A stretch of DNA of 32,992 nt from positions 1-32,992 of the forward strand of contig CATLHC010000030.1 of NCBI GenBank assembly GCA_949948775.1. The letters are read 5' to 3'. Numbering within the stretch: the stretch's first letter is position 1; each line of letters starts with the position of its first letter. Made by a program: the position numbers and the translations under genes. Under the pieces are notes generated by a model that ran no database searches, was not told the DNA's origin, and saw only the letters and a program-made list of their open reading frames with translations. Source of the stretch: an uncultured Oscillospiraceae bacterium. Its GTDB lineage: Bacteria; Bacillota; Clostridia; Oscillospirales; Oscillospiraceae. Below, piece after piece: positions 7,847 to 31,584 of this stretch.

Positions 7847-7860
7847 ATGCTATCATTCCG
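7847..7860 (+). promoter_or_regulatory. Candidate extended -10 promoter for yjdF
   Basis: TGC followed by TATCAT (7851-7856) forms an extended -10 element just ahead of the structured leader. No good -35 stands 17 bases upstream, which extended -10 promoters can lack. Transcription would begin near 7863, giving a leader of about 120 bases. Confidence 0.35.
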
Positions 7861-7863
7861 ATA

Positions 7864-7983
7864 GCGGAGATAAAAACACAGTCCCCGTCGGGTAGTCGGG
7901 GCGCGGGAGTCCGCCCTCCCGCCAGTAACCTGCCTCCTTGGTTGTCCCTTCTCCGTAAGCGATTTTAAGGAGGACAGTGGAAT
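7864..7983 (+). ncRNA. yjdF RNA motif candidate (azaaromatic-responsive riboswitch) in the yjdF leader
   Basis: The 120-base leader folds into clear stems: CCCCG (7883-7887) with CGGGG (7897-7901), and GCGGGAG (7903-7909) with CTCCCGC (7916-7922). After them CCTCCTT (7933-7939) is the exact complement of the ribosome site AAGGAGG (7967-7973). A shorter alternative, CTCC (7951-7954) with GGAG (7969-7972), is also possible. Such exclusive pairings fit control of translation. The call leans on the downstream gene: yjdF genes in Firmicutes usually have this riboswitch class, which binds azaaromatic compounds. The conserved ligand core was not matched base by base, so a covariance search is decisive. 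Confidence 0.72.
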
Positions 7984-21441: not shown

Positions 21442-22215
21442 TCACTCCTGATTGGCCGCGTTGATGATGGCCATGAAGTCGTCGGGCTTCAGGGAAGCGC
21501 CGCCGATGAGGCCGCCGTCGATGTCGGGCTGGGCCAGCAGCTCCGCCGCGTTCTTGGCGTTCATGGAGCCGCCGTACTGGATGGTGACGGCGCGGGCCAC
21601 GCGGGCGCCGTACTGCTTGCGGATGATGGAGCGGATGTGGGTGCACACCGCGCCCGCCTGCTCGGCGGTGGCGGTCTTGCCGGTGCCGATGGCCCAGATG
21701 GGCTCGTAGGCGATGACCACGCGGCGGACCTGGGTCTCGTTCAGCCCGGCCAGGGCCACCTTCACCTGGTAGGAGATCAGCTCCTCGGTGACGCCCAGCT
21801 CCCGCTGCTCCAGGCTCTCGCCCACGCACACGATGGGGCGCAGACCGGCCTCCAGAGCGGCGTGGACCTTCTTGTTGACGGTAAAGTCGGTCTCGTTATA
21901 GTACTGCCGGCGCTCGGAGTGGCCGATGATGACGTACTTGGCGCCCACGTCCTTGAGCATCTCCACGGTGACCTCGCCGGTGAAGGCGCCGCTGGCCTCG
22001 TAGTGGCAGGTCTCGCCGCCGATGGCCACGCGGGTGTCCTTGAACAGCCGGACCGCGCCGGGAATGTTCACGCCGGGGACGCACAGCACCACCTCGCACC
22101 ACTTATGGCGGCCCAGCTGGGGCTTGAGGGCCTCGGCGAAAGCCTTGGCCTCGGTGATGGTCTTGTTCATCTTCCAGTTGCCGGCGATGATCGTCTTGCG
22201 GTACTTGAGGTTCAT
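21442..22215 (-). CDS. tpiA: Triosephosphate isomerase
   Basis: A 257-residue TIM barrel interconverting dihydroxyacetone phosphate and glyceraldehyde 3-phosphate. Catalytic residues are N13 and K15 (GNWKMN), H99 (IIGHSERR) and E171 ([14 protein letters not shown]). The phosphate-binding YGGSMN and GGLIGGASL motifs are intact. It lies between pgk and gpmI. The upstream gap is unusually long for this operon because of a duplicated pgk tail and an inserted repeat. Confidence 0.97.
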
Positions 22216-22250: not shown

Positions 22251-22298
22251 TTAAGCGTCCAAAAGGCAGGCGACGCCGGGCAGCTCCTTGCCCTCCAT
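22251..22298 (-). pseudogene. Duplicated 3' end of pgk (48 bases)
   Basis: This segment encodes [15 protein letters not shown] and a TAA stop, identical in protein to the last 15 residues of pgk at 22424-22471. The DNA differs at 4 of 48 positions and all four changes are silent. It lies in the tpiA leader and cannot be a gene by itself. Confidence 0.9.
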
Positions 22299-22322
22299 GT
22301 CGTCGGGGCAAAGTCCACGCAC

Positions 22323-22410
22323 TCCGCTTCCGCCTGACGGCGAAAGCTGCGTTTGTTCCCTTGCCCCTCCTCTCCCCACAAAAGCTGAGGGGCGCTTTTG
22401 CGGGGACCCC
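22323..22410 (-). repeat. Intergenic repeat copy A, 3' of pgk
   Basis: Read on the minus strand, this core aligns by eye along its length with the plus-strand copy at 25844-25930. Shared blocks include GTGGGGAG, GCAAGG, CGCAG and TTTCGC. Both copies carry a hairpin whose arms changed in step: CAAAAGC/GCTTTTG here, against CAAAGCC/GGCTTTG in the other copy. It is the main part of the 125 bases between the true pgk tail and its duplicate. Confidence 0.75.
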
Positions 22411-22423
22411 GGACGCCGTTGTG

Positions 22424-23704
22424 TTATGCGTCCAGCAGGCAGGCGACGCCGGGCAGCTCCTTGCCTTCCATGAATTCCAGGGAAGCGCCGCCGCCGGTGG
22501 AGATGTGGGTCATCTTGTCGGCGTAGCCCAGTTGCTGCACCGCCGCCGCGCTGTCACCGCCGCCGATGATGGTGATGGCGCTGGTCTTGCTGAGGGCCTC
22601 GGCCACGGCCTTGGTGCCCACGGCGAACTTGTCGAACTCAAACACGCCCATGGGGCCGTTCCAGATGACGGTGCCCGCGTCGGCCACGGCGCCGCAGTAC
22701 AGCTTCACGGTCTCGGGGCCGATGTCCAGGCCCTGCCAGCCGTCGGGGATCTCGCCGGACTTGACCACGCGGCTCTCGGCGTCGGGGGCAAACTTGTCGG
22801 CGATGACGGTGTCGATGGGCAGCAGCAGCTTCACGCCCTTGTCCGCGGCCTTCTTCACCATGTCGTTGGCGTAGTCCTCCCAGTCGGCTTCCAGCAGGGA
22901 GTCGCCCACCTTGCCGCCCTGGGCGGCGGAGAAGGTGTAGGCCATGCCGCCGCCGATGATGATGGTGTCGGCGATCTCCAGCAGGTTGTTGATGACGCCG
23001 ATCTTGGAGCTGACCTTGGAGCCGCCCAGGATGGCCACCAGGGGGCGCTTGGGGTTGGCCAGGGCGCCGCCGATGAAGTCCAGCTCCTTTTGGATCAGGA
23101 AGCCGGAGACGGCGGGCAGGTAGTCGGCCACACCGGCGGTGGAGGCGTGGGCGCGGTGGACCGCGCCAAAGGCGTCGGACACGTACACGCCGTTAGCCCC
23201 GGCCAGATCGGCCATCTTGCGGGCCAGCTCGGGGTCGTTCTTGGTCTCGCCCTTCTCGAAGCGGGTGTTCTGGAGCAGCATGATCTCGCCGCCCTTCAGG
23301 GCCGCGGCCTTGGCCTGGGCGTCGGGGCCGACGACATCGTCAGCCAGGATGACCTTCTTGCCCAGCAGCTCGCTGAGGCGGGCGGCCACAGGCTCCATGC
23401 GCAGCTCGGCCAGGGACTTCTTCCACTTCTCCTCGGTGATGGAGGCCTCGTCCTTGCCCTTTTCCAGCTGCTTCTTCTTGTAGGACTCAAAGGTGGCCAC
23501 CGGCTTGCCCATGTGGGAGCAGGCGATGACCGCCGCGCCCTGGTCCAGCAGGTACTGGATGGTGGGCAGGGCGGCGCGGATGCGCTTGTCGTCGGTGATG
23601 ACGCCGCTGCCGTCCTTGGCCATGGGCACGTTGAAGTCGCAGCGCAGCAGCACCTTCTTGCCCTTGACGTCAATGTCTTTGACAGTCTTTTTGTTGTAGT
23701 TCAT
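22424..23704 (-). CDS. pgk: Phosphoglycerate kinase
   Basis: A 426-residue glycolytic kinase that makes ATP from 1,3-bisphosphoglycerate. Motifs: [11 protein letters not shown] near the start, [32 protein letters not shown] and the nucleotide loop [11 protein letters not shown]. At about residues 70-100 it carries an extra charged stretch ([19 protein letters not shown]) not present in the usual chain of about 395 residues. ATG at 23704 is chosen with AAGGAG 10 bases ahead; a TTG three codons earlier is too close. It follows trmL by 51 bases. The last 48 bases are duplicated downstream, but the gene itself is intact. Confidence 0.96.
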
Positions 23705-23755
23705 GTGCTCCAAACTCCTTTCATTGTTACAGCGTGAAGCGATTTAGGTTTGGAT

Positions 23756-25843: not shown

Positions 25844-25930
25844 TGGGGCCCACGCAAAGCCGCCCTTTGGCTTTGTGGGGAGGGGAGAAGCAAGGAAGTG
25901 AGCGCAGTTTTCGCGGAAAGCGGAAACGAA
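25844..25930 (+). repeat. Intergenic repeat copy B, between the two lipoprotein genes
   Basis: This copy aligns with 22323-22410 (minus strand). Its hairpin is CAAAGCC (25855-25861) with GGCTTTG (25869-25875). The related non-coding stretch runs from the stop at 25804 to about 25990 and adds a CGAAGC/GCTTCG hairpin beyond the shared core. As with copy A, it lies directly 3' of a gene and reads in the same direction as that gene. It has no coding potential that matches the neighbours. Confidence 0.75.
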
Positions 25931-26017
25931 GCCGAGCGGGCTTTGCTTCGACGAAAGCCGTGCGTCGCGAACAGGCAAAGCGTGACGACATAAAAAATTA
26001 AGGAGTTTGAGAGACAT

Positions 26018-31497: not shown

Positions 31498-31584
31498 GCC
31501 GGTGTGATGGAATTGGTAGACGTAGCGGATTCAAAATCCGCCGGGGGAGACTCCGTGGGGGTTCGAGTCCCCCCACCGGCACCA
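31498..31584 (+). tRNA. tRNA-Leu (anticodon CAA)
   Basis: An 87-base class II tRNA. The acceptor arms GCCGGTG (31498-31504) and CACCGGC (31574-31580) pair perfectly, then A and an encoded CCA follow. The anticodon arm GCGGA-TTCAAAA-TCCGC gives anticodon CAA, reading UUG. A long variable arm, the D-arm GATGGAATTGGTAGAC and the T-arm with GGTTCGAGTCC are all in place. Confidence 0.96.

Follow-up and report, generated by a model that had tools for sequence, protein, structure and literature searches.

Copies of F1, a short repeat scattered through genomes of Oscillospiraceae and other bacteria, recurrently stand between two versions of the same flanking sequence, commonly the end of a gene, and this duplicated flank is a rule across F1 copies and no accident of the phosphoglycerate kinase gene (pgk) at which it came to light. 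Because a gene is harmed by an insertion, small repeats are usually expected in intergenic DNA. F1 lies within the ends of core genes and leaves the protein unchanged or nearly so, and its layout suggests a little-known route by which a mobile repeat can get into genes and leave them whole.

The pgk gene end

The window, meaning the whole stretch of 32,992 nt analysed here (contig CATLHC010000030.1 of an uncultured Oscillospiraceae bacterium, G000 in the comparisons below), holds the 3' end of pgk twice, as tail A, which ends the complete gene, and as tail B, which lies beyond F1 (Table 1). In a repeat search the two are identical at 45 of 49 nt, and the differences, read on the minus strand (GAA/GAG, CTG/CTT, CTG/TTG and GCA/GCT), comprise four synonymous and no non-synonymous changes, both tails encoding the same 15 residues and then TAA. 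A preliminary description of this DNA had the last 48 bases of pgk recurring with four silent differences, which is confirmed, one shared base bringing the stretch to 49 nt. The 125-base insert that it placed between the tails is made up of the 13-nt spacer, the 111-nt repeat and the shared base 22299, and the repeat it saw there is F1, with 26 profile matches in the window's own genome, the pgk copy among them. The two pgk flanks align with a score of 78, against a maximum of 58 among 480 permuted-flank scores. By eye, spacer x is common to G018, with 2 differences, and partly to G029.

The second F1 copy in the window has no recognisable tail duplicate. A CGCGAACAGGC-AAGCGTGAC stretch to its right (25955-25995) is perhaps another small repeat, and similar stretches lie near F1 in L068 and in the pgk gap of G062, all by eye. 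Elsewhere in the window, Rfam models place an azaaromatic (yjdF) riboswitch at 7860-7965 on the plus strand (71.3 bits, gathering score 45) and a tRNA gene at 31498-31581, also on the plus strand.

Table 1. Features of the pgk-tpiA region and the second F1 copy, in window coordinates
Feature	Position	Strand	Basis or remark
pgk (phosphoglycerate kinase)	22424..23713	-	Complete, tail A being its end; ORF list, homologues in 59 of 60 relatives
Tail A, 3' end joined to pgk	22424..22472	-	Sequence and repeat search
Target junction T|C at tail A	between 22473 and 22472	-	
Spacer x, 13 nt, from pgk stop to F1	22411..22423	-	
F1 element (GGGGTCCCC ... CCGACGA), 111 nt	22300..22410	-	Hairpin P1, then compound stem around second hairpin
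F1 right terminus CGACGA, fixed end; tail B begins beside it	22300..22305	-	
Tail B, repeat of the pgk 3' end, in-frame stop included	22251..22299	-	Read as displaced native end
tpiA, next gene downstream of pgk	21442..22215	-	
Second F1 copy, after the stop of another gene	25845..25954	+	

The F1 repeat and its fold

By eye, F1 begins with GGGGYCCCC and ends with CGACGA and has no clear terminal inverted repeats. The right end is strongly conserved, its six positions holding C in 131, G in 133, A in 134, C in 132, G in 133 and A in 110 of 136 copies. Of 45 diverse copies chosen, 40 were aligned, and 22 of the 31 pairs in the predicted fold have compensatory changes on both sides; these changes are strong comparative evidence that selection acts on a folded single strand, whether RNA or DNA. 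Rfam searches at the gathering score in seven sources gave no match on F1, and a relaxed search of 301 bases gave, near the pgk copy, hits below threshold only, and no credible family.

A 271-base query around the pgk site found 24 matches in the window's own genome, self included and not all of them F1. Further afield, F1 was matched in 32 of 60 relatives, and in species genomes a pattern scan located 49 stretches with F1, many in records titled Oscillospiraceae and others in records titled Lachnospiraceae, Acutalibacter, Anaerotruncus and similar. Fifty-five of 125 copies lie at most 60 nt after the stop of a co-directional ORF. Copies at L082, L116 and L292 adjoin tRNA-gene-like stretches (by eye), and sequences beside F1 at L165 and L170 appear, by their motif, to resemble c-di-GMP riboswitches.

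In being short, dispersed, non-coding and folded, F1 is like MITEs and the ERIC, RUP, BOX and REP repeats, and as a non-coding, multi-copy element of its length it answers to the short-repeat description of a MITE. Prokaryotic MITEs, however, are described as typically rich in AT and bounded by terminal inverted repeats of some 4-30 bp (PMC10969869), whereas F1 is GC-rich, has no clear inverted ends by eye and is accompanied by duplicates that start 26-139 nt before the element.

Duplicated flanks at a fixed right end

Among 136 non-redundant F1 copies with an intact right end, 32 have a duplicate (called at a score of at least 24) that starts 0-2 nt after that end, as against 9 of 1353 permuted pairings; the other 104 have no flank duplicate by this test. 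In a first set of 96 copies, the flanks of 23 scored higher than the 99th percentile of 480 permuted pairs, and the duplicate starts at the right end in all of these except L072 and L082 (21 of 23). Within the window's own genome, reading found tail duplicates at pgk, L002, L003, L009 and L291, or 5 of 26 F1 matches, so that other gene ends flanked alike, which the preliminary description had proposed to look for, are present there as well as among the copies overall.

On the gene side, 23 of 32 duplicated stretches are immediately preceded by T (T makes up 18% of flank bases) and 22 of 32 open with G: the target of F1 is T|G-like. The left side, by comparison, is variable, with 0 to 87 nt separating the end of the duplicate from the F1 left end. 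Gene ends occupied by F1 include those of pgk, tpiA and genes that are aroF-like, valS-like, enolase-like, mazF-like and spoVA-like, the last five named from translations. At L105 and L131 the duplicated stretch reads as the beginning of an oppositely oriented gene, presumably lepA-like and typA-like to judge from protein motifs. Given these two cases, the rule of insertion seems to be that the gene is left whole, and not the 3' end as such. The idea of a miniature element that inserts at gene ends and restores the reading frame consequently holds as far as the intact gene is concerned, and finds no support in its restriction to 3' ends.

The nameable loci with duplicated tails all carry metagenome-bin titles, as would be expected if two strains had been joined in assembly, and the strain-titled loci (9 readable of 10), which to judge from their flanks represent only two kinds of site, show no duplicated gene end. 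An artefact of this sort is nevertheless highly improbable, since the same layout appears in separately named assemblies, where B has diverged from A and the right end obeys the same rule, and such recurrence across separate bins argues against assembly error.

The closest anatomical relative is the prophage e14 in icd, whose 165 bp substitute end is described as bringing 12 exchanges and two conservative replacements (PMC11148124). As there, F1 interrupts a metabolic gene within its 3' end, with a substitute end before it and the native end stranded behind. F1 differs in that its 111 nt are too short for an integrase and in having many target genes instead of one attachment site, and by analogy may be called an e14-like gene-end anatomy, but miniature and at many genes. 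That the pgk copy is the remnant of such a site-specific integrative element, its body lost and the repeat kept, would account for the anatomy, the substitute tail and the small number of amino-acid changes, which are likewise few in e14 (PMC11148124). The same repeat and layout recur at many unrelated genes, however, which a fixed attachment site cannot explain, and this very unlikely alternative is largely refuted.

Both tails as coding sequence

Across 24 gene-end pairs, tails A and B differ by 83 synonymous and 8 non-synonymous changes. With an expected synonymous fraction of 0.247 by chance, or 40% if B alone drifts, the binomial probabilities are 3e-41 and 6e-25, for pairs that are not fully independent, some being one gene in close species; dropping eight close-species or repeated-gene pairs leaves 56 synonymous and 7 non-synonymous changes in 16 pairs, pgk still being represented twice. 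The distal copy keeps an in-frame stop in 24 of 24, often of a changed type. The 24 pairs are the 32 duplicates less L009 and L081 (indel in B), L105, L131 and L121 (gene start, or wrong or shifted frame) and L134, L104 and L135 (duplicate without the stop of a co-directional ORF). The counts support the earlier suggestion that both tails probably evolved as coding sequence, and from the mostly silent differences and the kept stops the simplest reading is that tail B served as a real gene end until recently. Yet the indels in B at L009 and L081 and the decay of B in G027 indicate that tail B is not kept for long.

The differences are not evenly spread. At third positions they become more frequent towards the stop (17/129, 27/120 and 41/121, counted outward from the junction, in 24 pairs, with 0 of 2000 permutations as extreme), a gradient partly exposed to ascertainment, since the pair filter requires similarity near the junction. 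For that reason it was computed again without the first 9 nt in the 12 pairs of at least 45 nt, where it reads 7/77, 15/73 and 14/67, with 8 of 5000 permutations as extreme. A chimeric tail, host-like near the junction and donor-like near F1, would give such a gradient, which favours a model in which homology settles one end only. The position of the differences also bears on the idea that F1 and tail B form a guide-RNA unit whose nuclease cuts unmodified gene ends while a silently recoded tail A escapes. A folded element followed by a target sequence, and a tail A silently diverged in G018 and G027, would suit such a unit. Escape from a seed would nonetheless leave the opposite pattern, the 18 junction-nearest bases being identical in A and B of G018 and the differences concentrating away from the junction, and the idea, hardly credible in this light, was rejected.

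Filled and insert-free alleles

The pgk locus was read in 40 of 42 genus genomes, G023 having no match and G064 not being among them. F1 with a tail duplicate stands at pgk in G000, G018, G027 and G020. In G006, G021 and G035 a different repeat precedes an F1-like left hairpin, and the tail is duplicated; at L049, L052 and L054 such a repeat (GCGCCGCCGCGCGAGC...) and hairpin lie between two gene ends, about 66 nt being duplicated. Remnants were read in G029, G014 and G022, and the rest of the 40 loci have no tail duplicate by eye. A comparison of the pgk-tpiA gap in relatives, put forward with the first description, found insert-free alleles in G061, G033, G005 and G016. G061 belongs to a cluster of near-identical species with G018 and G027, and the DNA after the stop of its uninterrupted pgk resembles the DNA after tail B in those two. 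By eye, over 45 sites, tail B of G018 has 5 differences from the G061 tail and tail A has 12. Between G018 or G027 and each of G061, G033 and G005, the last 15 codons of pgk (those of tail A) differ by 9-15 nt and other windows by 0-5, and the three insert-free alleles differ mutually by 2-5 nt in these codons. In G018 and G027, then, the gene-linked tail A is the odd, silently diverged copy. For the window's own pgk a comparable insert-free allele is that of G016, with a GCT TAA ending as in tail B and similar downstream DNA (by eye).

Other genes give further cases. At the aroF-like gene F1 was found in 4 of 30 genomes read (41 searched), and in G018 and G061 a shrunken F1 is left after B. 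At the spoVA-like gene (30 read of 42 searched) F1 stands in G035 and G036, and another repeat stands in the same layout in G016 and G014, at the site GT|GGC or a closely similar one; the other 26 genomes read have no gene-end duplicate seen, a short second match in G029 being left out. At tpiA, G003 and G036 have nearly identical F1 copies, with strongly different DNA after B. Tail A equals or nearly equals tail B in G035 (93/93), G016 (two differences by eye) and tpiA of G003 and G036. The proposal that the element carries a substitute gene end accordingly fits G018 and G027, with their odd gene-linked tail, and not G035 and G016, where both tails are the host's own; to judge from these fresh cases, a tail can apparently start as a local duplicate.

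Several further repeats were noticed on the way. At L267 and L264, loci of the spoVA-like gene, the same layout is seen with a repeat whose left end is GGGACC-like and whose right end is CGAGGAGGAG. In another subclade (L048, L051, L053 and L057) the pgk-tpiA gap is taken up by a third repeat (GAGGATAGACGCATAGGG ... GCGTCCAATCCGAGCGTGA), apparently present twice in L053 and standing also after tail B in L052 and L054; it has no obvious tail duplicate of its own, all by eye.

Phage records also resemble the pgk region (10 matches, of which 7 were examined and H6, H7 and H9 left out). By tblastn, pgk is present in 6 of these 7 (L041-L045 and L047), with tpiA adjoining in 5, and H8 has an F1-like stretch only. 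The six are "Bacteriophage sp." records from faecal samples and probably bacterial contigs; an attachment site attP on a phage was dropped as a candidate, since phage records with pgk look like bacterial contigs in virome data.

Long duplications and the search for an enzyme

Some duplicates are perfect (93/93 at L074 in G035, 26/26 at L178), and three of the longest, with identities of 93/93, 92/96 and 128/139 nt, have a tail B that runs into F1. The extension of B into the first nucleotides of an F1 amounts to 29 at L074, 64 at L095 and 17 at L105 (29 and 17 by eye). Partial second F1 copies of this kind (L074, L095, L105, G018 and G061), together with the strong hairpin of F1, are what would be expected of a local tandem duplication of gene tail, spacer and F1 through template switching at the hairpins as the DNA is replicated, after which the distal F1 would be lost and A and B would diverge, all without transposition at the locus. 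Such an origin is improbable, as it leaves unexplained the T|G preference, the exact right end, the odd gene-linked copy in G018 and G027 and the mostly silent pattern.

A weightier alternative, a real possibility though a rather doubtful one, is that F1 is a miniature element moved by a DDE-type transposase with a long, variable target-site duplication. Insertions at T|G would duplicate some 25-140 bp, survivors within genes would be those whose duplicate spans the stop (or start), and filled alleles would spread by homologous recombination until A and B differ like orthologues. The preliminary description had thought so long a duplication unusual for a transposon, an objection that is not exclusionary, given that IS1549 and IS1634, of a family normally making repeats of 5-6 bp, are reported to make direct repeats of 8-514 bp (PMC2266710). 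According to that 2008 study of the IS4 and IS1634 families, a mechanistic model for the long duplications had yet to be put forward. F1 is like these two in its long insertion duplications of variable length; they are full insertion sequences, however, whereas F1 is non-coding, with one fixed end and mostly silent divergence within pairs. Perfect long direct repeats at fresh insertions, insert-free alleles and the two apparent gene-start cases are all in keeping with a transposase of this type, and the fresh cases in G035, G016 and tpiA of G003 and G036 fit a plain long target duplication equally well. Under this alternative B would be free to drift, but silent changes make up 83 of the 91 differences and every stop is kept; F1 has no clear terminal inverted repeats by eye; and because the DNA after B is host-like in G018, G027 and tpiA of G003 and G036, spread there would appear to need a right crossover inside B.

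The enzyme screen covered 42 genus genomes, all drafts of 64-100% stated completeness. Y1_Tnp was found in 16, RVT_1 in 25, IS110 in 20 (19 over the cut-off) and DDE_Tnp_1 in 21 of the 42. The window's own draft genome (89.4% complete) has no match to any of the four, and none of them was matched in every F1-rich genome, again in drafts. DDE_Tnp_1 is present in the F1-rich G002, G014, G016, G022, G023, G029 and G034, as the DDE reading would have it, and has no match in the drafts of the F1-rich G000, G018, G020, G027, G028 and G035, which sets F1 further apart from IS1549 and IS1634. In respect of REP/RAYT, no Y1 tyrosine transposase (Y1_Tnp) was matched in six F1 genomes, G000, G018, G027, G002, G014 and G016, drafts in which a gap is possible; in G020, Y1_Tnp is the sole match among the four families.

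A possible mechanism

The reading we prefer, with confidence that stops somewhat short of even, is that F1 is a non-autonomous mobile repeat: its right end would join a T|G-like site, and homology would settle its left end. F1, at about 110 nt, would act through a folded single strand, RNA or DNA, as the intermediate, and an enzyme acting at the right end would join CGACGA to a T|G-like site in roughly the last 20-80 nt of a gene. The left side would be settled by homology, either with the gene end itself or with the left-hand remnant of an older F1; tails B that run into the start of an F1, and the shrunken F1 at the aroF-like gene, suggest that the left side of a new insertion aligns with pre-existing homology. 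The inserted piece would consist of gene tail, spacer and F1, so the gene would run on into the inserted tail A with protein and stop kept, and the native tail B would be stranded beyond F1 and then decay. A donor piece from another lineage would give tail A that lineage's silent differences, and one from the same locus would make A equal to B. Long target duplication combined with allelic exchange stands close behind this homology-settled left end and explains nearly as much.

Homology-facilitated illegitimate recombination also has one homologous end and one that is not (PMC3240628), and differs from the pattern at F1 in that the second end is here the exact right end at a T|G-like site. Small variable segments are reported to be flanked by repeats in 10-18% of cases, mostly of less than 30 bp (PMC2884548). 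A literature search, in which few subscription journals were covered, found no description of the F1 family or of its pattern.

Implications

In light of these observations it is possible, rather than probable, that F1 represents a new mode of mobility, in which a folded non-coding element with one specific end inserts inside gene ends, uses homology for the other end and carries a silently distinct replacement end. If true, F1 would be a natural miniature home-and-rescue cassette, by which a selfish repeat enters essential genes, and foreign gene tails would be carried between species. F1 would also offer a measurable case of how long duplications arise. More broadly, it would be a source of silent mosaicism at gene ends, which could mislead tests for recombination and selection.
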